Assembly (NCBI RefSeq): GCF_001610835.1
Contig: NZ_CP011270.1
Coordinates: 5,474,001-5,538,000 of the forward strand
Reading direction: 5' to 3'
Source of the DNA: Planctomyces sp. SH-PL14
Lineage (GTDB): Bacteria > Planctomycetota > Planctomycetia > Planctomycetales > Planctomycetaceae
Length of the DNA stretch: 64,000 nucleotides
Shown here: one piece after another, positions 36,562 through 48,963 of the stretch
Layout of the letters: the number at the start of each line of letters is the position of its first letter
Numbering within the stretch: position 1 is the stretch's first letter
Program-made: the position numbers and the translations under genes
The notes under the pieces: generated by a model
Told to the model about the DNA's origin: nothing
Databases searched by the model: none
Seen by the model: only the letters and a program-made list of their open reading frames with translations

Positions 36562-39068
36562 CTGAACCGGTTCGGAACCAGGGCCTCCTCCGCCGGGGCC
36601 GCCCCCGCCCCCGCCCCGCCTCCGCGACGACCGCTGCCTGGCCCGGCGCCTGGTCCGGTTCCGGGACCGCCGCGCCCCGTCGGGGCGGAGCCCTCCGCCG
36701 CGACGCGTTCGCCGCGCGGTGCGGGGGACGCGGTCTCGGCCGCTGCCGCGGAACGTTCGCCTCCCGTGGCGGCTCCCCCTCGGGACCCGCGCGGCGCTGC
36801 CGCGGGGGCCAGCGGTCGAAGCCGCTCTTCGAGATCGGCTTTCGTCGCGTCCGGTTCGGTGTTGGCCCAGAAAAACTCGCCGGCCGGCAGAGCGAAGTCC
36901 TCGCGAACCTGCTGACGCGGCGCGAAGACGAGCCCCGCGGTCCGGACCGACTGCTTGCGGATTCCCGACGTCTTGGTGATCCAGTTCGAGCCGGGCATCT
37001 TCACAATGCCGACGATCGTGTACTCGATCGCCTCGGTCGGCTTCTTCGGCGGGATCAGCCCCAGCCGATCGCCGACCTTCATTCCGGCATACGTGAGGAA
37101 CGTGTCCGGGACGAGGCAGTTCCGTCCCTCCCTGAGCTGGCCGAGGGCCGCGGCGCGGTCCCCCTGGACGAAGTCGAGCGTGAACAGCGGCGTCTCACCG
37201 CCGAACGCCCTGTCCGCGTCGAGACCGATGAGCGAGACGTTGTCCTGCCGGACGGCGGAGTCCCGCTCGCCGCTGCGGAACGGGTCGCCGAGAAGCCGCG
37301 TCTGCTCCACCGCGATCGGGAGGAACTGGTCGGCTTTGAAGCCCGGAGTCTGCCGGACCTTCTCGATTCCGGCTTCGTCGAGACCGGGCTGGAACTTCAC
37401 GATCGTTCCGGGGGTCCACCGGCCGGGCAGGAAGCCGCCGAGCATCGACCAGCCCCACACCTGCGTCGCGGTGTAGAGGCCGAGCCCCAGCATCAGCGAC
37501 GCCGCGATCCCGGCGGACCGCCACATGTTCGAGCTGAGCTGCGTCCGGACCAGGTTTGTCTGGAGCCGGAGCAGGCCGGCGACGAGCGGGGCGAACGCCC
37601 GCTCGACGAGCAGGACGACGAGCGGGGCCAGCAGAATGAAACCCAGGACGGTCGTCGGGGCACCGACCAGCAGGACCAGGGCGAACCGCACCTTCTCGGG
37701 AAGCCCCGGCAGGAAGACCAGGATCGGGTTCAGCGCAATCAGGAGAGCGCTGATGATCCCCGCCCCCCAGTACCATCGAGCGGAGGCCGGCGTCGTCGCG
37801 ACCGGGGCCATCGCCTCGAGCGGACTGATCCGGGTCGCTTTCCAGATCGGGAAGACCGACGCCAGGAGCGCTCCGGCGAGCGAGCAGCCTCCTGTCAGGA
37901 GAATGCTCGCGGCTCCCATCGACACCCCTTTCGGGAAGAGCTGCGGACTGGCGCTGGCGATCGCCTTGAGGAGCGCGGCTCCTCCGGCCAGTCCGCCGAT
38001 CCAGCCGAAGACCGCCAGGACGACCGCCTCCACGAGAACGAGGGCCCCGACCTGCGGCCGGCGAAGCCCCACGGCCCGCAGGACCGCGAGCTGCCGGGCC
38101 CGTTCGCTGACCCCCATGCTGAGCGTCGTGAAGATGATGAACGCCGAAGCGAGGATCGACAGCGCCGTCACGAAGTAGGCCTGTTTGCGGGCCCCCTCCG
38201 CTACGAACCCCGACGAGAGCTTCGCTTTCACGTCTTCGGGCCGGATGATCTCCGAGGCGGGAGTCGCCGCCGCGACGCTCTTCGCGATGCTGTCGAGCGA
38301 ACTCCGGGGCTTCAGGCGGATCTCGACGAGATTGGTCCGCGGAGCGGCCCCCGTGAGTGCTTCGATCCGGCTCAGCGGGACATAGGCGCAGAGCGAGGCG
38401 GGACCGCGGTTCGTTCCGCCGGGCGCTCCCCCTTTGGTCCGGGTCATCGCGGACTCGACCTCTTCCACCTGCTCGGTGATCCCGACGACGCCGAGCGCCA
38501 CGACATCGCCCCCTTTGGTCCGGAACTCGATCGTGTCTCCCGGCTTGAGCGAGAGAGCCTCGGCGACGCCGCTGCTGACGACCGCTTCGGAATCCGTTCC
38601 CGCTTCGAGCCAGCGGCCGTCGACGAGGGGATACCGCGGTTCGCCCGCCTCGGTCCCGACGATCATCGGCCCCATCCGCCCGAGCGTCCTCCGCGGAGGT
38701 CCCGCCGCCCCCTGCGGGCCGGGGGAGGGGGAGGTGGTCGGCGTCGGAGGAGCGGAGGGATCGGCCGCCTTGCGGAACGACATCCGGAACTGGGCGACGG
38801 GGTTTGCGGCCTCGACCGCGGGATCGTGCTGGATCGCGGAGACCAGCTCCGGGGCGAGAGCGTCATCGAGCGATTGCGGAACGACGAAGGCGGTGTAGTT
38901 GCCGACGAACTCGGCGGTCTGGTCGTCGAACCGGGCGGCGATCGCCTCATAGGCCGAGACGACCCACAGCACGACGCCGACCGCCGCGATCATGGCGACG
39001 GCGGTCAGGGCCAGCCGGACCTTGTGCTGGCGGGCCTGCGCGACGAAGAGTTTCCAGATCAGGCTCAT
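36558..39068 (-). CDS. ABC transporter permease, MacB/FtsX type (C-terminus displaced)
   Basis: 836 residues. N-terminal membrane helix (VRLALTAVAMIAAVGVVLWVVS), a large periplasmic domain, the first FtsX domain (SILASAFIIFTTLSMGVSERARQLAVLRAVGLRRPQVGALVLVEAVVLAVFG), then a second periplasmic domain. The end is a Gly/Ala/Pro/Arg low-complexity stretch (about 770-830) that replaces the final FtsX domain found in the paralog; that domain lies in the next frame. The ATG overlaps the stop of its ATPase gene as ATGA. Confidence 0.85.
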   Translation of the reverse strand: MSLIWKLFVAQARQHKVRLALTAVAMIAAVGVVLWVVSAYEAIAARFDDQTAEFVGNYTAFVVPQSLDDALAPELVSAIQHDPAVEAANPVAQFRMSFRKAADPSAPPTPTTSPSPGPQGAAGPPRRTLGRMGPMIVGTEAGEPRYPLVDGRWLEAGTDSEAVVSSGVAEALSLKPGDTIEFRTKGGDVVALGVVGITEQVEEVESAMTRTKGGAPGGTNRGPASLCAYVPLSRIEALTGAAPRTNLVEIRLKPRSSLDSIAKSVAAATPASEIIRPEDVKAKLSSGFVAEGARKQAYFVTALSILASAFIIFTTLSMGVSERARQLAVLRAVGLRRPQVGALVLVEAVVLAVFGWIGGLAGGAALLKAIASASPQLFPKGVSMGAASILLTGGCSLAGALLASVFPIWKATRISPLEAMAPVATTPASARWYWGAGIISALLIALNPILVFLPGLPEKVRFALVLLVGAPTTVLGFILLAPLVVLLVERAFAPLVAGLLRLQTNLVRTQLSSNMWRSAGIAASLMLGLGLYTATQVWGWSMLGGFLPGRWTPGTIVKFQPGLDEAGIEKVRQTPGFKADQFLPIAVEQTRLLGDPFRSGERDSAVRQDNVSLIGLDADRAFGGETPLFTLDFVQGDRAAALGQLREGRNCLVPDTFLTYAGMKVGDRLGLIPPKKPTEAIEYTIVGIVKMPGSNWITKTSGIRKQSVRTAGLVFAPRQQVREDFALPAGEFFWANTEPDATKADLEERLRPLAPAAAPRGSRGGAATGGERSAAAAETASPAPRGERVAAEGSAPTGRGGPGTGPGAGPGSGRRGGGAGAGAAPAEEALVPNRFR

Positions 39069-39853
39069 CGGGCCACCTCCGCGGCGGTTTCGGCCACGAT
39101 GTCCTGGTAGCGGCCGGCGAGGGCGTGCGCATCCGGGAACTCGGCCGCGGAGAAATCGGCACAGACCGCCCCGTCCTTCATGACGACGATCCGCCGGGCC
39201 CAGATTGCGACCGCCGGTTCATGCGTGACGACGACGATCGCCCGGCCGTCCCGGTCATTCAGTTCCTTCAGCAGCGTGCAGATCGCCTTACCGTTGATGG
39301 AGTCGAGACTCCCGGTCGGCTCGTCCGCCAGGACGATCGCCGGGTCGGTCACGAGCGCCCGGGCGATGGCAACCCGCTGCTGCTCCCCACCGCTCATCGC
39401 GTCGGGACGATGGCCGATCCGCTGCCCGAGTCCGAGCCGCTCGAGGAGCTTCGTCGCACGGTCCCGCATCTCCTGCGAGCCGCGGGAGCCCTCCGCCATC
39501 AGCGGCAGCATGACGTTCTCGAGGGCCGTCAGGGCCGGGATGAGATTGAACTGCTGGAACACGAGCCCGATCCGCCGCCGCCGGAAATCGGTCAGCGTCC
39601 CGTCGGCGAGTTCCGAAAGGGACTGCCCTTCCACCGCGACCGTCCCGGCATCGGTCCGGGTCAGTCCCGCCATGACGTGCAGCAGCGTGCTCTTTCCCGA
39701 GCCGCTCGCCCCCATGACGGCGACAAACTCGCCCGGCGCGACTCGGAGCGAGACGCCATGCAGAGCCTCGACCGTCGCGGTCCCCTGATGGAAGCGCTTC
39801 GTCACTCCCTGGACAACCAGCGGTGCAATCGATGGAGAGACGGGATCGGACAT
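39065..39853 (-). CDS. ABC transporter ATPase, LolD/MacB type
   Basis: 262 residues from ATG 39853. Walker A GASGSGKST, Q-loop LVFQQFNLIPALTALENVMLP, signature MSGGEQQRVAIARAL, Walker B IVLADEPTGSLD and H-loop VVTHEP are all intact. Partner of the permease downstream. MacB/Lol-type systems export peptides, antibiotics or lipoproteins with an outer component; no such component is visible here. Confidence 0.93.
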   Translation of the reverse strand: MSDPVSPSIAPLVVQGVTKRFHQGTATVEALHGVSLRVAPGEFVAVMGASGSGKSTLLHVMAGLTRTDAGTVAVEGQSLSELADGTLTDFRRRRIGLVFQQFNLIPALTALENVMLPLMAEGSRGSQEMRDRATKLLERLGLGQRIGHRPDAMSGGEQQRVAIARALVTDPAIVLADEPTGSLDSINGKAICTLLKELNDRDGRAIVVVTHEPAVAIWARRIVVMKDGAVCADFSAAEFPDAHALAGRYQDIVAETAAEVAR

Positions 39854-39876
39854 GACGACCTTTCGAGGAACCGAAC

Positions 39877-42648
39877 TCAAAACGTGACGCGCCCCTGCTG
39901 AAGCAGCGTGAGGGGCCGGAGCCGTCCGATGGAGAGCGCCGGCCAGACCGCCGCGAGAGTCGAGAGCACGAGGACTCCCAACAGCGCCCCCCCGACGACC
40001 CGCCAGGGAACATGGAGGGCCGGATGCAGCCCTCCGAAAAAGCTGATGTATTGGGCCATTCCGCAACCGCACCATCCGGCGAGGAGGCCGAAGCCGAGAC
40101 TGAGCAGCACCGCCACCAGCCCGATGAGGAACCCTTCCGCCAGGATCGCGCGGACGATCGACGACTGCCCGATCCCGATCGACCGGAGGAGGCCGAGCTC
40201 CCACCGCCGGCTGCGGATCGAGGCGAGGATGATGTTGAGGACCCCGAGCCCGGCAATCGCCGTCGACACGAGCGGCAGGAGACTGACGCCCCAGATCCAG
40301 CGGGTCGCGTTGTTGCGGGTCATCTGCCGGATGTCTTCGACCGCCATCAGGCGGATCTTCGGACCGTCGTTCTCGCGCGCCTCGGGCGGGAGCGCCTCGG
40401 CGTAGATTGCCTTCGCGGCGGCGGTGATCGCCTGGGAATCAGCGTGCTGGTCCGAATAGTCGAGCCACAGGTGCGTCGCTGCAGGAAGCGAAAAATCGTC
40501 GGCGACGGTCCCGTAGTTGGCGAACACGAGAGCGGCGGCCCGGTGTGTTCGCGAGCGAAAGCCGGTCAGCTTGGTCTGCCAGTGCCACCCCGGAAGCCGG
40601 AGCGCCCCCGCGATCCGGTAGCGGACCGGAGAGGTGGGGGCCTCGGGCGGGACCAGGTCGAACGAGTCGCCGATCGCGAGCTTCGTCTCGGTGAGGAAGT
40701 GATCGGGAACGAGGCAGCCCCGTCCCGCGACCATCTCGTCGATCGCCTGCCGGGGATCCCCGTCGGCCCATTCGACCTCGAACAGCGGCCGGTCTCCGCC
40801 GAACGCCTTCCGGGGGTCGATCCCGACCAGCACGACATTGTCCTGCCGGATCACCGACGCCCGTTCGGCGCTGCCGGTGACATCGTCCAGGAGCCGCGGC
40901 TGTTCGACGACGATCGGCAGGCAGTGCTCGGGATCGACGCCCGGGAGGCGGGCGATCTCCGGGACCTTCGACAGCGGAAGCCCCCCCGACTGAAAGGCGA
41001 GGACGGCGTCCGGCGCCCACGGCCCGACGAGAAAGCCGTCGAGCATCGTGAAGCCCCAGACCTGAACGCCGATGAAAAGACCGAGGCCGACCGCCATCGA
41101 GAGGGCCGCGGCGGCGGTCCGCCAGACGTGGCTCGTGATCTGGCTGCCGAGGAGCTTGGGATCGATCCGGAACAGGCGGGCCAGCCCCGGGCCGCCGAAC
41201 CGGTCGACCAGGGCGACGACCGCGGGGGCGATCAGGACGAAGCCGATCGACATCGACACGAAGCCGACCGCCATCGCCAGGTAGACCTGCTGGTCGAACC
41301 GCGGCGGGAAGACAAAGGTCACGAGCGGATTGACCAGGATCAGTGCGATCCCCAGGAGAATCGTCCGGATCGGCAGCCGGCTCGCCACGGGGGCCTGTCC
41401 GGGGGCCATCGCGTCGACGGGCCGGGCCCGCGTCGCCCGCCAGGCCGGCACGATCGCGGCCAGGAACGCCCCTCCGAAGGTGGCGATCGCCGCCAGGCCC
41501 AGGCTGTAGGGACCGATCGTCGTCCCATGGTGCAGCAGCCGGGCCGCGACACGCCCGACGACACCGAGCAGCAGCCCGCTGAGGAGCAGTCCCCCCAGGA
41601 ACCCGGTCAGCGCGAGGAGCATCGCCTCCGTGAAGATCAGCAGGGAGAGCTGCGTCCGCGTCAGCACGAGTGCCCGCAGGACCGCGAACTGCCGGATTCG
41701 CTCCGTCACCCCCATGCTGACCGTGCCGAAGATCACCAGCATCGCGACCAGCATTGCGATTCCGGTCGTCGCATAGGACTGAATCCGGACGTTGTCCGCC
41801 GAGGCACTCTCGTCGAGGGCTTCCTCGATCTCGAACGCCTCCTGGAACTGAACAGGGGTGTCGTAGCGGCTGAGCCGGGGCCCCCAGCCGAACCGGAACT
41901 TCGTGAGGTCCGTCTCGGACTTCACGGCGACGCCGACAAAGCTGATCTCGGGCGGGCTGCCGAAGATCCGCTCGGCTGTCGCGGTCGAGACAAACAGGTC
42001 TCCCGCGCCGGGCGTCCGGATCTGCGGCACGGCATACGTCCCGGCCCCGAGCGACGGCGCGTCCAGCAGCCCGGTGACAATCAGGTCGGTCGGCCGCTCT
42101 TTGGCGGTCACGGTAACCGTGTCGCCGAGGCGGACCTGCAACCGCTCCGCAGCCGCCCGGGTCAGGGCCGCTTCGTTGTGGCCTTGGCCCGCCGTCAGCC
42201 ACTTCCCTTCAAGATCGAACGGAGGGACCGCGGAATCGAACGCGAGAAGCGTGTATTCGGAACGCCGCTCCGGGGGACCGCCGAGTCCCCGCAGCCGGCC
42301 TTCGGCCGAGTCCGCAGCCCGTCCGGGTCCGGCATCGGACCGCGGCCGGACGGTCACTCGGCTCATCCAGACCGGTTCCGCCGACGCGACCGAAGGATCG
42401 GACCGCATCGCCTCCAGCACCTCGCGCGGAACCGCGGGGTTTCCTTCGGTGGCGATCGGGCCGATCGAGAGCTGGTAATGCCCCAGCGCCTTGCTCGCCC
42501 AGTAGTCGAACGTCTGGAGCAGCGAGTCGTACCCCGAGGCAATCCAGATCACGAGACAGGTCGCCGCCGTCGTCGCCAGCGATGTGAGCGCCACACGGGC
42601 CGGATGTTCGCGGAGAAAGGCGACCGCCAGCCGGAAGACCTTCCTCAT
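39877..42648 (-). CDS. ABC transporter permease with two FtsX domains
   Basis: 923 residues. An N-terminal membrane helix (VALTSLATTAATCLVIWIASG), a periplasmic domain, a first FtsX domain (MLVAMLVIFGTVSMGVTERIRQFAVLRALVLTRTQLSLLIFTEAMLLALTGFLGG), a second membrane-periplasmic unit and a complete final FtsX domain (STAIAGLGVLNIILASIRSRRWELGLLRSIGIGQSSIVRAILAEGFLIGLVAVLLSLGFGLLAG). It overlaps its ATPase gene by four nt and is clearly paralogous to the split permease downstream. Confidence 0.92.
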   Translation of the reverse strand: MRKVFRLAVAFLREHPARVALTSLATTAATCLVIWIASGYDSLLQTFDYWASKALGHYQLSIGPIATEGNPAVPREVLEAMRSDPSVASAEPVWMSRVTVRPRSDAGPGRAADSAEGRLRGLGGPPERRSEYTLLAFDSAVPPFDLEGKWLTAGQGHNEAALTRAAAERLQVRLGDTVTVTAKERPTDLIVTGLLDAPSLGAGTYAVPQIRTPGAGDLFVSTATAERIFGSPPEISFVGVAVKSETDLTKFRFGWGPRLSRYDTPVQFQEAFEIEEALDESASADNVRIQSYATTGIAMLVAMLVIFGTVSMGVTERIRQFAVLRALVLTRTQLSLLIFTEAMLLALTGFLGGLLLSGLLLGVVGRVAARLLHHGTTIGPYSLGLAAIATFGGAFLAAIVPAWRATRARPVDAMAPGQAPVASRLPIRTILLGIALILVNPLVTFVFPPRFDQQVYLAMAVGFVSMSIGFVLIAPAVVALVDRFGGPGLARLFRIDPKLLGSQITSHVWRTAAAALSMAVGLGLFIGVQVWGFTMLDGFLVGPWAPDAVLAFQSGGLPLSKVPEIARLPGVDPEHCLPIVVEQPRLLDDVTGSAERASVIRQDNVVLVGIDPRKAFGGDRPLFEVEWADGDPRQAIDEMVAGRGCLVPDHFLTETKLAIGDSFDLVPPEAPTSPVRYRIAGALRLPGWHWQTKLTGFRSRTHRAAALVFANYGTVADDFSLPAATHLWLDYSDQHADSQAITAAAKAIYAEALPPEARENDGPKIRLMAVEDIRQMTRNNATRWIWGVSLLPLVSTAIAGLGVLNIILASIRSRRWELGLLRSIGIGQSSIVRAILAEGFLIGLVAVLLSLGFGLLAGWCGCGMAQYISFFGGLHPALHVPWRVVGGALLGVLVLSTLAAVWPALSIGRLRPLTLLQQGRVTF

Positions 42649-43400
42649 CGGATCGCCTCCGTCCGTGGCTGAAGCGCCTGCTGGTAGGCGGCCGCGATCT
42701 CCTGCGGGTCATGGCGGCCGGTGGTCTGGAACTCCGCCTGATTCCGGCCATCCTTGAGGACGACCACCCGGTCGGCCCACATCGCGACGTGCGGTTCGTG
42801 TGTGACGATCACGATCGTCCGCCGCTGTTCGTCGCACAGGCCGCGGAGGAGCCGGCAGATTTCCTGCCCGGAGACGGAGTCGAGACTCCCGGTCGGCTCG
42901 TCTGCGAGCAGAATCGCCGGATCGCAGACCAGCGCCCGGGCAATGGCGATCCGCTGCTGTTCGCCTCCCGACAGCGCATCCGGACGATGCGTCCGCCGCT
43001 CGGTCATGCCGAGCCGATCCAGCAGCGAGCGAACCTTCGCCGTCAGATCGGGGGACTCGGGGGCGGGGAGACGGATGTTGTCTTCCGCGGAAAGACTCGA
43101 AATGAGATTGAACGCCTGAAAGACCAGTCCGATCCGGTCGCGGCGAAAGCGGGTCAGCTCGGCGTCCGAGAGTCGGGAGAGATCCTGGCCGTCGACGGTC
43201 ACGCGGCCGTCGTCAACGTCCGTCAGTCCTGCGAGAGCATGGAGCAGCGTGCTCTTCCCGGAGCCCGAGGCCCCCATGATCGCCACGAACTCCCCCGCCT
43301 GGACCGTCAGCCCCACACCCCCCAGCGCGGTGACGGAGTTCCCCCCTTGACGGTAGCGCTTGACCACATCCGTGGCCTGCAATGGCGTTCCAGACAGCAT
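42645..43400 (-). CDS. ABC transporter ATPase, LolD/MacB type
   Basis: 251 residues, first gene of the operon 43400-36082. Walker A GASGSGKST, Q-loop LVFQAFNLISSLSAEDNIRLP, signature LSGGEQQRIAIARAL, Walker B ILLADEPTGSLD, H-loop IVTHEP. It pairs with the 923-residue permease. The operon thus holds two related ATPase-permease pairs, a duplication of one exporter unit. Confidence 0.93.
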   Translation of the reverse strand: MLSGTPLQATDVVKRYRQGGNSVTALGGVGLTVQAGEFVAIMGASGSGKSTLLHALAGLTDVDDGRVTVDGQDLSRLSDAELTRFRRDRIGLVFQAFNLISSLSAEDNIRLPAPESPDLTAKVRSLLDRLGMTERRTHRPDALSGGEQQRIAIARALVCDPAILLADEPTGSLDSVSGQEICRLLRGLCDEQRRTIVIVTHEPHVAMWADRVVVLKDGRNQAEFQTTGRHDPQEIAAAYQQALQPRTEAIR

Positions 43401-44015
43401 CCGAAGTCACAGTCCCCAAGGTCGATCGCCGCGAGCGGAGAGCCGTCGCGGCGATCACGGCGCAACGTCCCCCTCGTCCAGAACCCGCGATGCCTTGGTA
43501 CCGCCCCCGCTAGCGATCGCTCCGACCAGCCTGATTCGTGGCACTCCCTATCACCGCCATCGGCCGCAGAGCAAACGGCAGACCACAGCGGGATTCCTTG
43601 GAATTCGTTATCCGACACTCGCCACGAAACGCCCTCGTCCGGATTGGCTGGCGAAAAAAGCATCGTTGTTGGCCAGCGAGCGGCCGCGTCAACGCGAACT
43701 GGCGAACGACCATTTGCCTCACCGGGCATCATCTGAAACCGCAAGCGATAGAAGTTGTCGTCAAGTCGGCAAGAGGATGCAGATCATGCGCAGCAATGCC
43801 CGCAAGAAACTGTTCAATTGGCGTCCGGTCGCCCCGACTGAAAGTGACGCCTCCGTCGCGGGCCTGTCGTGTGGTTGCCGTTGTCGTCGCGTGACTCACC
43901 ACATGACACGGCCCCGGATGTTGGCGGTGCCCCGCAGCTGTCGTTCCCAGCAATTGACAGCTCGGAACTCCCAAGCTAACACTCAAATTGATGTTTGATC
44001 GTGAGCGGGGGAGTC
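43401..44015. other. Divergent intergenic region between ABC operon and PhyH operon
   Basis: About 615 bp without a convincing gene. Short frames exist on both strands but lack codon character, family features and ribosome sites. GC content falls toward 43560-43800. The right end carries the promoter candidate for the plus-strand operon. Confidence 0.6.
43936..43982 (+). promoter_or_regulatory. Promoter and operator candidate for the PhyH-MFS-VOC operon
   Basis: TTGACA at 43954-43959, 17 bases, then TAACAC at 43977-43982, 34 nt before the PhyH start. A 7-bp inverted repeat AGCTGTC (43936-43942) / GACAGCT (43956-43962) overlaps the -35 box and may be an operator. The -10 is weak. Confidence 0.35.
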
Positions 44016-44786
44016 ATGGCTGTCGAGACGGGGACGAGTCGTTCCGAGGCGTTCCGTGAACTGGGGTACTGCGTCGTTCGCGGCCTGTTCTCGCGGGAGG
44101 AGATCGCCGCCGTCAGTGCGGAGGCGAATCGCGTCTTCGGTCGGAAGGAGCTGATCGACTTCAACAACCTGCGGTGCCGGTGGCTCAATCATCACGAGAC
44201 GCAGGAGTGCCGGTTCGACTGCTTCGACCCGATCACCGACCTGAGCGACGCCATCGACCGGATGGCCCGCGATCCGCGGCTGCTGGACCTGCTCTCGACG
44301 GTGTACGGCGAGGAGGCGTGCCTCTTCAAGGACAAGCTGATCTACAAGCCTCCGGGGGCGATGGGCTACGGGCTCCACCAGGACTACATCAGCTGGGAGT
44401 CGTTCCCCAAGAGCTTTCTGACGGTCCTGATCCCGATCGACCCGGCGACGGATGAGAACGGGGCGACCGAGGTCTTTCCGGGGACGCACCGGAACGGGTA
44501 TCTGTCGGCCATCGACGGGGATTACCACGAGCTCGACGAGTCGGCGATCGCCGGTGTCGAAGGAGTCCGGCTCTGCCTGGAACCGGGGGATGTCGCGGTC
44601 TTCGACGGAATGCTGCCGCACCGCTCGGCTCCGAACAAATCTAGCGCGTGGCGCCGGCAGCTCTACCTGAGCTACAACGCCAAGTCCGACGGCGGCGAGC
44701 AGCGGGACGCCCATTACCGGGAGTTTCACGGCTGGCTGAAGAAGAAGTACGCCGAGTACGGCAAGACCGATACCTATTTCCGCTGA
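44016..44786 (+). CDS. PhyH-type Fe(II)/2-oxoglutarate dioxygenase
   Basis: 256 residues from ATG 44016 (GGGGGAG just upstream). The family pattern is complete: FRELGYCVVRGLFSREEIAAV, the metal ligands His121-x-Asp123 (GYGLHQDYISW) and His202 (GMLPHRSAPN), and Arg213 for 2-oxoglutarate. The ending LKKKYAEYGKTDTYFR is also usual. It hydroxylates an unknown small molecule. First gene of a four-gene plus-strand operon; the next gene follows after 18 bp. Confidence 0.9.
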   Translation: MAVETGTSRSEAFRELGYCVVRGLFSREEIAAVSAEANRVFGRKELIDFNNLRCRWLNHHETQECRFDCFDPITDLSDAIDRMARDPRLLDLLSTVYGEEACLFKDKLIYKPPGAMGYGLHQDYISWESFPKSFLTVLIPIDPATDENGATEVFPGTHRNGYLSAIDGDYHELDESAIAGVEGVRLCLEPGDVAVFDGMLPHRSAPNKSSAWRRQLYLSYNAKSDGGEQRDAHYREFHGWLKKKYAEYGKTDTYFR

Positions 44787-44804
44787 GCCCCGCGGCCGGC
44801 TCCG

Positions 44805-46160
44805 GTGAGTTCCATGTCGTCGAGAACCCTTCCCCAGCGGCTCCCCGTCTACTACGGGTGGGTCAACGTCTTCATGGCGGCGGTGGCGATGATCGCCACC
44901 TTTCCCGGGAGGACGTTCGGCCTGGGGATGATCCAGAAGAAGCTCCTCGAAGACCTGCGGATCAGCGAGCTGGAGTTCACCGGGATCAACCTCCAGAGCT
45001 CGCTCCTGGGGGCGCTCTTCTGCCTGCCGATGGGATATCTCATCGACCGCTTCGGCGTCCGGATCGTTTCGGCGTTCGTCATCGGGGCCCTGGGGCTGAG
45101 CGTCCTGGGGATGACGCAGATCCAGGGGCCGACTTCGCTCCTGCTGGCGTTGATTCTGATTCGCGGACTGGGGCAGACTTCGCTGTCGATCGTCAGCATG
45201 GCGATGATCGGGAAGTGGTTCCGCCGCCGGCTGGGGATCGCGACCGGCGTCTATACCGTGCTGCTGACCTTCGGGTTCATCTCGACGATCGTCGGGATCG
45301 GTTCGGCGGTTGCCCGCTTCGACGGCTGGCGGACGCCGTGGAGCGCCGTCGGCTGGGGGCTGCTCGGCCTGGCGCCTTTCACGCTGCTGCTGGTCCGAAA
45401 CACCCCCGAGTCCTGCGGGATCGAGCCCGACGCTCCGGTCCCGCCTCCCGTGCCGGAACCGGGCGTCGCCGCCCATCGCGACTACACAGTCTTCGAAGCC
45501 CTCGCGACCCCCGCCTTCTGGGTGTTTGTCCTCGGGACCTCGGCGTTCAATCTCGTCTTCTCCGCCATGACGCTCCTCAACGAGTCGATCATGGGGGAGA
45601 ACGGATTTTCGCAGAACGACTCGATGATCGTCATGGCGTATCTGACCGGGGTCGGCCTGCTGGCGAACTTCTTCGCCGGGGCAATCGCCCGGCGGCACCG
45701 CCTCGGGGCGCTCCTCGGCTTCGGGCTGGCGATCATGGCCGCCAGCCTCGCCTGCTTCCCGATGATCCGCTCCCACGGGGCGCTCTGGGTCTACTCGGCC
45801 GCCTTCGGGTTCGTCGGCGGGTTCGTGACGGTCGTTCACTTCGTGGCCTGGGGGAACTTCTTTGGACGGAGCCATATCGGCCGGATCCAGGGCGTGGCCC
45901 AAGTCGTCTCGGTGTTTGCTTCGGCGACCGGGCCGGAGATGATGGCCTGGTGCCGCGAACGGACCGGCTCGTACCACCCGATCCTCTATGTCTTCGCGGG
46001 GGCCGCGGCGATCAATGCCGTGGCCGCCTTCCTGGTCCCGACTCCCCGCCTGATTCCGGCCGCCGAGCCCGATCCGACCGTCCTGGACCCGGTCCCCGGT
46101 GACACCCCGGTCTCGCCGTACCTGCAACCCACGCCTGCGTCTGCCGCCGCCCAGGAGTAA
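44805..46160 (+). CDS. MFS transporter
   Basis: 451 residues (GTG 44805; an ATG three codons later is the alternative). Twelve hydrophobic helices, with the MFS A motif in GYLIDRFGVRIV and a second half starting after a cytosolic loop (PPVPEPGVAAHRDYTVFEALATPAFW). It resembles OxlT/monocarboxylate-type MFS proteins. It probably moves the substrate or product of the PhyH and VOC enzymes coded beside it; the direction is unknown. Four nt separate it from the first VOC gene. Confidence 0.9.
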   Translation: MSSMSSRTLPQRLPVYYGWVNVFMAAVAMIATFPGRTFGLGMIQKKLLEDLRISELEFTGINLQSSLLGALFCLPMGYLIDRFGVRIVSAFVIGALGLSVLGMTQIQGPTSLLLALILIRGLGQTSLSIVSMAMIGKWFRRRLGIATGVYTVLLTFGFISTIVGIGSAVARFDGWRTPWSAVGWGLLGLAPFTLLLVRNTPESCGIEPDAPVPPPVPEPGVAAHRDYTVFEALATPAFWVFVLGTSAFNLVFSAMTLLNESIMGENGFSQNDSMIVMAYLTGVGLLANFFAGAIARRHRLGALLGFGLAIMAASLACFPMIRSHGALWVYSAAFGFVGGFVTVVHFVAWGNFFGRSHIGRIQGVAQVVSVFASATGPEMMAWCRERTGSYHPILYVFAGAAAINAVAAFLVPTPRLIPAAEPDPTVLDPVPGDTPVSPYLQPTPASAAAQE

Positions 46161-46163
46161 TCC

Positions 46164-47303
46164 GTGGCCGATCTCCCTGTCATCGAACCGCCGAGCCTCG
46201 ACATCCCGACCTGCTGCGGAACGTCGTCCGCGGCGGCCCCGCACGATGTCACGACGCGGTTCCATTTCTCGCTGAACGTCTCCGACATCGAGACGTCGGT
46301 GGCGTTCTACCGCAAGCTGTTCAACTGCCCGCCGGCGAAGCACCACGGCGACTACGCCAAGTTCGAGCTCTCGGAGCCGCCGCTCGTCTTCTCGCTCGTC
46401 CCCAACGCTCCCGGCTCGCAGGGCTCGCTGAGCCATCTCGGGTTCCCGGTCAGCAGCACCGAGGAGGTCCAGGCGACGGCGGCCCGGCTCGCCGCCGCGG
46501 GACTCTCGACCACCTGCCAGGACGGGACGGTCTGCGGCTATGCCCGGCAGGACAAGGTGTGGGTCGCCGATCCCGACTCGAACTACTGGGAGATCTACGT
46601 CGTCCACGAGGATGTCGACCCGGCGACGGTCCGGTCCGCCTACGACGGCGAGGCTCCCGAGGCGTACGCGCCGGCAGTCGAGGCGAAGGCTCCGGAGCGG
46701 CAGATCTACGAGCACCGCGTGACCGATACCGCCCCGGACTGGTCGGGGGTCGAGGAGGGGAGCGTCGACGAAGTCCGGCTGACCGGGACCTTCAACTCGG
46801 CCCTGTCCGACGACGATCGGCTGCTGCTCCTGAAGGAGGCGGTCCGGATCCTCAAGGCGGGGGGCGAACTGAACGTGCACGGGCTCGTTTCGAGCGCGCC
46901 GGTCGGGGACGTGGCGCCGAACCTGCCCGGCGTGGCGTCGCTCGTGAAGCGGATTCCGACGGAGGACGAACCGCTCCGCGAACTGGCGGCGGCCGGACTC
47001 GCCGGCGTGCGGATCACCAAGCTGCCGGAGTCCCCCGTCTTCCAGACCGGGGCTCTCGAGATGCGGGAGATCAAGGTCTCGGCCTTCAAGCCGTCGGAGC
47101 GGAGTTCGAAGGCCGGCGAGCGGACCGTCGTCTACAAGGGGCCGTTCGCCCAGGCGACCGACGATTCGGGACAGGTCTATCGCCGCGGGGTGAGGACCGT
47201 CGTCACGGCCGAGCAGGAGGAACTGCTGGCCCGCAGCTCCGCGGCGAAGAGCTTTCTCTTCATTCAGGATGAAACGACCTGCGGCGCGGGAGCGAGTTGT
47301 TGA
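46164..47303 (+). CDS. ArsI/CadI-like VOC domain fused to partial methyltransferase (copy 1)
   Basis: 379 residues. Residues 32-150 form a VOC/glyoxalase domain of the ArsI/CadI type: RFHFSLNVSDIETSVAFYRKLFNCPPAKHHGDYAKFEL, metal ligands His34, His91 (SHLGFPV) and Glu143 (YWEIYVV), and TVCGYARQDKVWVADPD where ArsI has its CC pair. Residues about 190-375 match the second half of an ArsM-type class I methyltransferase (VDEVRLTGTF, AVRILKAGGELNVHGL, VVYKGPFAQATDDSGQVYRRG) without the SAM-binding motif I. Extra cysteines stand at both ends (PTCCGTSS; TTCGAGASC). Possible role in arsenic or other thiol-reactive compound chemistry. Confidence 0.75.
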   Translation: MADLPVIEPPSLDIPTCCGTSSAAAPHDVTTRFHFSLNVSDIETSVAFYRKLFNCPPAKHHGDYAKFELSEPPLVFSLVPNAPGSQGSLSHLGFPVSSTEEVQATAARLAAAGLSTTCQDGTVCGYARQDKVWVADPDSNYWEIYVVHEDVDPATVRSAYDGEAPEAYAPAVEAKAPERQIYEHRVTDTAPDWSGVEEGSVDEVRLTGTFNSALSDDDRLLLLKEAVRILKAGGELNVHGLVSSAPVGDVAPNLPGVASLVKRIPTEDEPLRELAAAGLAGVRITKLPESPVFQTGALEMREIKVSAFKPSERSSKAGERTVVYKGPFAQATDDSGQVYRRGVRTVVTAEQEELLARSSAAKSFLFIQDETTCGAGASC

Positions 47304-47385
47304 GAATCGACCGCCGCCGCCCCTGAGATCCGTCCGACCGTCGTTCCCCCCCCCCGCACCCCGGCTTCTCACACGCGAACCTGCC

Positions 47386-48423
47386 ATGCCCGCCACGCTT
47401 GCTCCGCCGACGACCCGCAAGTTTCACTTCGGCCTGACGGTCTCGGACCTCGACCGTTCGGTCGACTTCTACCGCATCCTCCTCGGGGCGGAGCCGGCGA
47501 AGCACTATGCGGACTACGCTAAGTTCTCGGTCGAAGACCCGCCGGTCGTCCTGGCCCTGCACCCAGGGAAGTTCGCGACGAGCGGAGCGCTCAACCACGT
47601 CGGGTTCCGGCTGGAGAACTCGGAAGCGCTCGTGCGGGTCCAGGAGCGGCTGGAGCTGCAGGGGATCCGGACGCAGCGGGAAGAGGGGGTCGAGTGCTGC
47701 TACGCCCTCCAGACCAAGTTCTGGGTCCCGGACCCGGACGGGAATCTGTGGGAGGTCTACACCCTCCATGAGGACCTCGATCACTCCGGCTTCGGCGGCG
47801 ATGGGCAAGGCATGCCCCCGAAGCCCGGCGTGTCGGCGGCAGCGGTGACGTGGGACCACATGCTGATTCATCCCATTCCGAGCCGCATTCCGCACGAGGA
47901 CGGGACCGTCGATGAGGTCCGGCTGGAAGGGACGTTCAACATGAGCGTCCCGGCCGAGACGCGGCAGGCCCTCGTGGCCGAGGCGTTCCGTGTCCTGCGT
48001 CCCGGCGGCCGGATCTGGATCCACGGCCTCGTCGCCGACCGGCCCTTCACCGACAAGCCGAACCTTCCCGGTCCGGCCGCGATGGTTCAGTGGATCCCGG
48101 TCGAAACGCTTCCCGCCGAGGAGCTCGCGCAGGCCGGGTTCATCGGGCTCAACTACGACAAGCTGGGCGACATCCACTGTTTCCGCGTCAACGGGACGGA
48201 GCTGCGGCAGCTCCAGCTGGCCGGGTTCAAGCCGACCACGTCGGCCGACGAGCAGGATCACTACGTCCTGTACCGCGGTCCGCTGGAACAGGTGACGGAC
48301 GACCGGCAGCGGATCTACCGCCGCGGAGTCCGGGTGCCGGTCGACGCCGCCACCTGGTCGTTGTTCCGCCAGTCTCCCTACGACGAACACTTCACCTGCT
48401 TCCGCTGCGCGACCTCGCGCTGA
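47386..48423 (+). CDS. ArsI/CadI-like VOC domain fused to partial methyltransferase (copy 2)
   Basis: 345 residues from ATG 47386. VOC domain: KFHFGLTVSDLDRSVDFYRILLGAEPAKHYADYAKFSVEDPPVVLAL, His14, His71 (NHVGFRL), Glu123 (LWEVYTL). Here the vicinal pair Cys104-Cys105 (EEGVECCYALQTKFWVPDPDG) is kept, as in ArsI C-As lyases and CadI. The C-terminal half parallels copy 1: VDEVRLEGTFNMS, AFRVLRPGGRIWIHGLV, HYVLYRGPLEQVTDDRQRIYRRGVRVPV, ending FTCFRC. Tandem duplicate of copy 1, 82 bp downstream. No ArsR regulator or arsenate reductase is nearby, so the arsenic link is only by family. Confidence 0.75.
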   Translation: MPATLAPPTTRKFHFGLTVSDLDRSVDFYRILLGAEPAKHYADYAKFSVEDPPVVLALHPGKFATSGALNHVGFRLENSEALVRVQERLELQGIRTQREEGVECCYALQTKFWVPDPDGNLWEVYTLHEDLDHSGFGGDGQGMPPKPGVSAAAVTWDHMLIHPIPSRIPHEDGTVDEVRLEGTFNMSVPAETRQALVAEAFRVLRPGGRIWIHGLVADRPFTDKPNLPGPAAMVQWIPVETLPAEELAQAGFIGLNYDKLGDIHCFRVNGTELRQLQLAGFKPTTSADEQDHYVLYRGPLEQVTDDRQRIYRRGVRVPVDAATWSLFRQSPYDEHFTCFRCATSR

Positions 48424-48453
48424 ATGTTCAGCAGGCGGTCCCGCGTTGTTGAG

Positions 48454-48867
48454 TCACCCTCGTAAATTCAAAATGTATTGAGGAACGATGCCTTCAAGTT
48501 CTCGCTTCACCGTCCTTTCGAGCACTCGCCAAAGGGCATCGAAGTGCTGAAGCTCGGGGTACTCGCGGGGACCATAGCCGGAAACCAGAACGGAGAACTC
48601 CTCTTCGCCGTCCTGCACCTTGAGGACTCGAGCTCCAAGATCCTCCATAGGATATTCGTATCGATCACGCAGTCCCTTGAGAGGCCCGACGAACGGACGA
48701 AAGAGGTCGGGCTGAATGAGAAACGTCCGCTCCCATCGATGGGATTTGTAGTCGAACCATCTCGCCTCCAGGGACGCGTCCTCGCCGATCGTCTGGAGAG
48801 ACCAACCGAAAAGGAACTCGGAAAACCCCGAGTACAGGGCGGCCTCCATCGCGAGCAACTTGGCCAT
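48454..48867 (-). CDS. Hypothetical host protein
   Basis: 137 residues from ATG 48867 with GGAGGG upstream (MAKLLAMEAALYSGFSEFLFGWSLQTIGEDASLEARWFDYKSHRWERTFLIQPDLFRPFVGPLKGLRDRYEYP...). It lies convergent with the VOC operon and divergent from the PQQ gene. It reads as a soluble alpha/beta protein; I recognise no family. Confidence 0.6.
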   Translation of the reverse strand: MAKLLAMEAALYSGFSEFLFGWSLQTIGEDASLEARWFDYKSHRWERTFLIQPDLFRPFVGPLKGLRDRYEYPMEDLGARVLKVQDGEEEFSVLVSGYGPREYPELQHFDALWRVLERTVKRELEGIVPQYILNLRG

Positions 48868-48963
48868 GACTTTGTCCCTCCTCCCCGTCGCCCTTCCGCC
48901 CCTCAACACGTGACTTGGAAAGATACCGAGTCCGTGCGTGAACATCGTTCCCGGAGTTCTCCC

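Follow-up and report, generated by a model that had tools for sequence, protein, structure and literature searches.

A planctomycete-centred gene cassette built from ArsI, ArsM and PhnY-like parts, probably serving to break down or detoxify an organoarsenical by oxidation

What could be the purpose of a protein that joins a lyase-type domain to half of a methyltransferase? The question is raised by positions 44016-48423 of a 64,000-nucleotide stretch of the genome of Planctomyces sp. SH-PL14 (NZ_CP011270.1, positions 5,474,001 to 5,538,000; G000:C1:5474001-5538000 of an 8.44 Mb single-contig genome), referred to here as the window. Four genes lie there head to tail, all on the + strand, encoding a PhyH-family dioxygenase, a major facilitator superfamily (MFS) carrier and two copies of a fusion in which a vicinal oxygen chelate (VOC) domain is followed by the back half of an ArsM-like methyltransferase. 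Domain identity, residues and gene neighbourhood establish that the system is built from ArsI, ArsM and PhnY-like parts. They also suggest a planctomycete-centred cassette that probably uses oxidation to degrade or detoxify an organoarsenical, a substrate that is likely on the evidence of sequence. An earlier note, made from the letters of this stretch, had named the same four genes and proposed a dedicated pathway; open reading frame (ORF) coordinates and Pfam and NCBIfam matches agree with that gene content, as follows.

44016..44786, + strand: PhyH-family Fe(II)/2-oxoglutarate dioxygenase (PF05721, 100.4 bits; NF052437, 92.5 bits), HxD...H and C-terminal motif kept
44805..46160, + strand: MFS carrier, monocarboxylate/lactate-transporter-like (PF07690, MFS_1, 114.3 bits; best NCBIfam model SfMCT, 57.8 bits, cut-off 320)
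46164..47303, + strand: VOC/half-ArsM fusion copy 1, 379 amino acids; metal triad H/H/E, CG instead of the Cys pair, third Cys absent; member of the copy-1 clade (support 100/99)
46254..46619, + strand: VOC (ArsI/CadI) domain of copy 1 (NF041414, 148.2 bits, cut-off 116; PDB 5c4p, E 5e-26)
46710..47279, + strand: degenerate ArsM back half of copy 1 (NF040538, 66.9 bits, model positions 153-343)
47386..48423, + strand: VOC/half-ArsM fusion copy 2, 345 amino acids, start ATG 47386; metal triad H/H/E, CC pair, third Cys in the ArsM half
47419..47787, + strand: VOC (ArsI/CadI) domain of copy 2 (NF041414, 129.4-129.8 bits, cut-off 116; PDB 5c4p, E 3e-22)
47857..48405, + strand: degenerate ArsM back half of copy 2 (NF040538, about 52 bits, 51.6-52.0, model positions 184-335; Foldseek 5eg5, E 3.6e-11, and 4fs8, E 4.9e-11)

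Successive genes are separated by gaps of 18, 3 and 82 bases. The carrier gene starts at GTG 44805 or ATG 44814, both fusion frames are open, and the two fusion copies are 41% identical.

The front half of each fusion is of the C-As lyase/CadI type, as the earlier note had proposed. Both window copies exceed the curated cut-off of the ArsI/CadI model NF041414, which is also matched, at E values no higher than 1e-5, by all 24 aligned fusions, and the best PDB sequence matches of both halves are solved chains of the C-As lyase ArsI. The Pfam Glyoxalase domain is recognised in both fusions, at 49.5 bits in copy 1 and 54.8 bits in copy 2. The H/H/E metal ligands are present in both window copies and in 50 of the 58 fusion proteins tabulated, a table that excludes four broken fusions (the second copy of locus L047, two of L052 and the second copy of L059). 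Residue alignment agrees with the earlier note that copy 2 has CC at the substrate-cysteine position and copy 1 has CG; CC is found in 47 of the 58. Counterparts of Tyr38, His65, Gln103, Lys105 and Glu117 of T. curvata ArsI, whose roles are described in passages of PMC12607644, are kept in both window copies. The fusion VOC halves thus share with ArsI an above-cut-off score, the metal triad and the Gln, Lys and Tyr counterparts, and copy 2 also shares the Cys pair. They differ from it in that the matched PDB chains are stand-alone domains of 123-126 amino acids whereas both window proteins are two-domain fusions, and in the CG of copy 1. Readings of this half as a fosfomycin-resistance protein, a glyoxalase or an extradiol dioxygenase were set aside, the Fos and HpaD matches reaching at most 30 bits against ArsI scores above cut-off.

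In fold as in sequence the second half corresponds to the ArsM back half, the small C-terminal domain included. Its best ArsM model match is NF040538, the arsinothricin-type ArsM; only the back part of that model (356 positions) is matched, far below its cut-off of 500 bits, and 19 of the 24 aligned fusions match it within the E limit of 1e-5. An AlphaFold2 model of copy 2, built from 24 sequences, has a mean per-residue confidence (pLDDT) of 85.5 and a predicted template modelling score (pTM) of 0.54. With this model Foldseek retrieves ArsM structures first (5eg5, E 3.6e-11, probability 1.00) and then, from rank 12, structures of C-As lyase (5v0f, E 3.2e-10), and VIA-align with the C-half aligns the ArsM structure CrArsM 5evj_B with a Z score of 12.8 and a root mean square deviation of 7.8 over 186 residues. 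Comparison of 25 aligned fusions with 24 ArsM sequences of the same phylum shows what has been lost. The pattern of S-adenosylmethionine (SAM) motif I occurs in 0 of the 25 fusions versus 21 of the 24 ArsM sequences, and the ArsM front half is absent from the fusions, so that the earlier note was right to see the second half of an ArsM lacking this motif. Beyond what it had claimed, the C-half has also lost both arsenic cysteines of ArsM and gained another. Cys at the SNC position is found in no fusion, and Cys at the SGC position in one (L051, neither window copy), versus all 24 ArsM sequences in each case. A new, third Cys replaces the Trp of ArsM in 19 of the 25 fusions and in none of the ArsM sequences. 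Among the 58 tabulated proteins the third Cys is present in 44 and stands together with the CC pair in 43, and all seven CG proteins are without it.

A methyltransferase-derived half beside an oxygenase and a carrier resembles a small biosynthetic set, and the ArsM model matched best is the one from the arsinothricin cluster. Both points would fit a cassette that makes an organoarsenical, with PhyH tailoring the compound, the MFS carrier exporting it and the fusion serving as a self-protecting or editing enzyme. Such a role is nevertheless improbable: none of the four window genes encodes a known C-As-bond-forming enzyme, the ArsM half has neither SAM motif nor arsenic cysteines, and NF040538 detects no full ArsM in the window genome.

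The arrangement in two copies recurs elsewhere. In the tree, from which L048_7602, L190_3 and L052_11545 are excluded, a single clade gathers the first copies of tandem loci (100/99; 10 rows, L047 included), and the second copies group only weakly (59/88; 8 rows). Members of the copy-1 clade have a CC copy 2 as their neighbour in several genera, and the tandem pair appears to be old. A very improbable alternative is that the window pair is a decaying cassette, its copy 1 deprived of key cysteines and its regulator elsewhere. The CG and missing third Cys of copy 1 would fit this, as would the absence of ArsR beside the window genes, but both frames are open, the metal triad of copy 1 is kept, and a well-defined copy-1 clade beside CC partners in several genera is not what random decay would leave. 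The Cys pairs that the earlier note had seen at both ends of copy 1 are confirmed in part: there is a CC near the N-terminus, but the two C-terminal cysteines are five residues apart and form no pair.

Several variants of the fusion were observed among the relatives. L188 and L189 hold more diverged tandem pairs in which the metal ligands are altered in both copies, and L186 has an additional VOC copy. In Limnoglobus roseus (L048:7569-8210) a VOC domain carries just the final small domain of ArsM and lies next to a full fusion. In a verrucomicrobial metagenome-assembled genome (L049:7740-10226) the fusion frame continues stop-free into that of a G3E (COG0523-like) GTPase, and the three parts may form one fusion. 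A fusion-type half-ArsM without a VOC domain, either a remnant or a separate protein, lies near a DUF1559 gene at L126:9285-9758 (genome G373).

How widely is the fusion distributed, and in what company? In a scan of named genome contigs, represented by the best 80 loci of a longer list, the fusion occurs in at least 19 loci (L042-L060, L060 being incomplete), comprising, among the matches listed, 17 planctomycete records, one unnamed bacterium and one uncultured verrucomicrobium. Within the family of the window organism, both halves are covered by a match in 33 of 170 genomes. A search for spread on plasmids (tblastn with copy 2) matched 116 records, none of which covered 80% of the query. 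The literature titles and abstract openings listed, a coverage largely outside subscription journals, yielded no account of the VOC/half-ArsM fusion or of the cassette.

Neighbourhoods were counted for 49 fusion loci, with relatives of the query proteins sought within 6 kb. The tblastn queries were drawn from some of the fusion loci and from the window, so that those loci match by construction. The count excludes L060 (no complete fusion), L126 (half-ArsM alone) and L162, L163, L182 and L191, taken for duplicate contigs because of their equal length, and the 49 loci are not independent, since L042/L048 and L165/L166 each share a genome and the copy 2 proteins of L166 and L175 are identical. 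An MFS carrier is found near 45 of these loci, PhyH near 37, a DUF1559 protein near 31, an ArsR with a Cys-Cys pair near 30 and a G3E GTPase near seven. By comparison, PhyH, MFS and DUF1559 are all absent from 61 solo-ArsI control loci, of which 34 have ArsC, 18 ACR3 and seven a related ArsR. None of 20 canonical ArsM control loci, hand-picked from search matches with long contigs favoured, has PhyH, MFS, DUF1559, ArsR, ArsC or ACR3. PhyH and MFS lie on the strand of the fusion in 80 of 82 cases, and the order seen most often is DUF1559-PhyH-MFS-fusion, whether or not ArsR follows. The DUF1559 protein that was scanned has a prepilin-type (pseudopilin-like) N-terminus. Because the same fusion and partners recur across relatives, the association goes beyond chance. 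The genome-neighbourhood search that the earlier note had suggested for the four-gene set thus reveals a conserved cassette, and the idea of a dedicated pathway is well supported: solo ArsI is found near ArsC in 34 of 61 loci, whereas the fusion VOC travels with PhyH and MFS.

PhyH is not nearby in 12 of the 49 loci, in seven of which the upstream sequence extends no further than 2.3 kb. L046, L049 and L122 have TonB-dependent receptors adjoining the cassette, a hint that a compound is taken up from outside. Beside the cassette of L122 (249-8609) lie a GcvH-like protein and a G3E GTPase, and by eye ferredoxin-like, polyprenyl-synthase-like and cysteine-desulfurase-like ORFs. The G3E GTPase was downgraded as a specific member of the cassette, being found in 143 of the 170 family genomes.

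That GTPase also bears on another explanation, in which the fusion is a CadI-type protein that binds or buffers a soft metal such as Cd(II) through its thiols while PhyH and MFS serve a separate, co-regulated metabolite. NF041414 covers ArsI and CadI without separating the two, classical ars genes are absent near most fusion loci, and the GTPase near seven loci matches models that include metallochaperones such as ZigA. The residues described as required for ArsI catalysis are retained, however, the partner half derives from an arsenic enzyme, PhyH and MFS are too constant for bystanders, and nearness of a GTPase so common in the family is weak evidence. On balance a metal-buffering role appears unlikely.

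What might the PhyH enzyme contribute? It was compared with NF052437, the model of the methylphosphonate hydroxylase PhnY (cut-off 500 bits). In a genome-wide search of the window genome the cassette PhyH is the best match (91.9 bits, next paralogue 48.6), and the cassette PhyH proteins of G000, G238 and G502 score 91.9, 92.8 and 89.4 bits with the next non-PhnY paralogue at 48.9 or below. Genome G238 also encodes a PhnY above cut-off (537.4 bits). In G373, in which only the half-ArsM remnant was found, the best score is 52.2 bits. The window PhyH, a member of the same Fe(II)/2-oxoglutarate PhyH family, is 29% identical to the G238 PhnY (73/254) and has in common with it the motif RR-x-LYL-x-YNA...R-x-A-x-Y. 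The facial triad HxD...H and an Arg (H121, D123, H202 and R213) are invariant in an alignment of nine. It differs from PhnY in that the cassette PhyH has a conserved Cys in an N[LI]RCR motif, absent from the PhnY compared. As described in passages of PMC6581173, PhnY converts methylphosphonate to hydroxymethylphosphonate and PhnZ completes the cleavage, a pathway of the planctomycete Gimesia maris. No PhnZ-type HD protein was found among the eight window proteins scanned, no genome-wide search having been made.

This kinship, on which the earlier note was silent, invites a reading in which the VOC fold has been put to new use and the true substrate is a phosphonate or some other thiol-reactive metabolite. 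The shortage of solo-ArsI-type ars neighbours and the failure to find ACR3 or ArsB in the window genome would agree with it. Against this, the Cys pair (47 of 58 fusions) and the third Cys (44 of 58) are kept, and the pair would be unexpected for phosphonate chemistry; the ArsR proteins near the cassettes, moreover, have Cys sites like those of the arsenical sensors described in PMC13236881. A non-arsenical substrate is thus also unlikely, to a degree close to that of metal buffering.

For the preferred reading, breakdown or detoxification of an organoarsenical, the following scheme can be drawn. The MFS carrier would move substrate in or product out, and PhyH would hydroxylate the carbon next to a pentavalent As(V) oxo-acid. 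Reduction of As(V) to As(III) would be left to cell thiols or take place elsewhere. The VOC half, acting as an ArsI-type Fe(II) dioxygenase, would then bind trivalent arsenic through its Cys pair and cut the C-As bond with Fe(II) and O2. The ArsM half, presumably no longer a methyltransferase, would serve as a scaffold for handling arsenic, possibly contributing a third thiolate and holding substrate or product. In tandem loci the active subunit would be copy 2, with its full set of thiols, and copy 1 would be its diverged partner, and the Cys-Cys ArsR, where one is near, would switch the cassette. A more specific form, proposed tentatively and doubtful as it stands, is a two-oxygenase route parallel to PhnY/PhnZ: a PhnY-like enzyme would hydroxylate a methylarsonate-type As(V) compound, and a three-thiol site formed by ArsI and the ArsM half would cut the C-As bond. 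ArsI itself acts on trivalent arsenicals such as MAs(III), the trivalent methylarsenical, according to passages of PMC12607644, and a passage of PMC10579292 calls the mechanism of demethylation of dimethylated arsenic (DMAs) unclear.

Does the genetic setting look arsenical? All 13 cassette ArsR sequences compared share one N-terminal Cys and a C-terminal CC. In other ArsR proteins, as portions of PMC13236881 describe, As(III) is sensed by three Cys and MAs(III) by a C-terminal pair. Because both Cys arrangements are described there, either As(III) or MAs(III) could be the ligand of the cassette ArsR. In L123, L124 and L183 the cassette adjoins ArsR, ACR3, an ArsC-type reductase (in L123 147 bits, under the cut-off of 174) and a solo ArsI. 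These three loci count as one event because they belong to one genus and are nearly identical. They and the 30 of 49 loci near a Cys-Cys ArsR resemble classical ars operons, from which the fusion loci otherwise differ, only four having ArsC nearby and three ACR3. The earlier note had remarked that no ars regulator or reductase is near, which fits the surroundings of the window cassette but not most relatives, given the ArsR near 30 of their fusion loci. An ACR3 match occurs in four of ten other cassette genomes, above cut-off in two. The window genome encodes an ArsC-like protein at 881241 (118.8 bits against a curated cut-off of 174.3). About 1.9 Mb from the cassette, near 7.43 Mb (L219:8465-10047), a divergent G3E GTPase and an ArsR with a GCC tail were observed.

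A number of results weigh against the organoarsenical reading. Its substrate is one that we infer, because only 3-4 of the 49 loci adjoin classical ars genes and the window genome is without ACR3 and ArsB; the arsenic link comes from homology and from those 3-4 loci, three of them near-identical. Fusion loci are poor in ars neighbours when set against solo-ArsI loci (ArsC 4/49 versus 34/61, ACR3 3/49 versus 18/61). No match to ArsR, arsenate reductase or arsenite exporter was found beside the window cassette (locus L127), and none to ACR3, ArsB or, by NF040538, a full ArsM in the window genome, so that released As(III) would need another exit, through the MFS carrier or another pump. Five loci without PhyH nearby (L042, L047, L048, L052 and L187) have at least 6.9 kb of upstream sequence, and PhyH is therefore not indispensable. 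The window PhyH, at 92.5 bits, lies far under the PhnY cut-off. The joint loss of the Cys pair and the third Cys in CG proteins is not independent repetition, because it mostly reflects shared ancestry, largely within one clade. A pTM of 0.54 is too low to fix the arrangement of the two halves, and the third thiolate is accordingly a tentative idea. Finally, sequence searches and Foldseek agree on ArsI and ArsM, the comparison that the earlier note had recommended, and neither groups the VOC halves with unrelated dioxygenases, but VIA-align alone ranks generic VOC structures first for this half; its list contains no ArsI, an absence not taken as evidence. Of the earlier note's overall interpretation, the ArsI/ArsM origin and the dedicated pathway therefore stand, and the organoarsenical substrate, with few ArsC or ACR3 genes nearby, retains the status of an inference.

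Possible control elements of the cassette were also considered. An inverted repeat, TCAAATTGATGTTTGA, lies at 43983-43998, directly upstream of PhyH, and is a possible regulator site, although its spacing varies among relatives. Occurrences of TCAA-N(4-10)-TTGA were counted in the regions upstream of the relatives' cassette genes and compared with the expected number: PhyH 4/38 (expected 0.6), DUF1559 5/34 (0.8), ArsR 2/30 (0.6), MFS 2/45 (0.8) and VOC 1/66 (1.1), with one occurrence in the window. A shared ArsR operator of this form was set aside for its inconsistent spacing and, because the spacing varies, is not relied on. A search for sigma-70 promoters over 43400-48900 found none, and a scan for RNA elements gave only two sub-threshold small nucleolar RNA matches, both within copy 1. 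Around the cassette, an ABC ATPase and long permease-like ORFs lie divergently on the - strand at 39065-43400 (the product of 42645-43400 matches ABC_tran), and DUF1549/DUF1553 and DUF1501 proteins are encoded downstream in the window.

In the fusion a methyltransferase has been stripped of its catalytic and arsenic-binding residues and yet retained beside a lyase across many genera. The pairing of an ArsI domain with a methylphosphonate-hydroxylase-like enzyme offers a concrete, testable candidate for another route of organoarsenical breakdown. If the two-oxygenase proposal is true, it would represent a novel type of pathway for C-As cleavage, in which half of a methyltransferase has been turned into an arsenic clamp.

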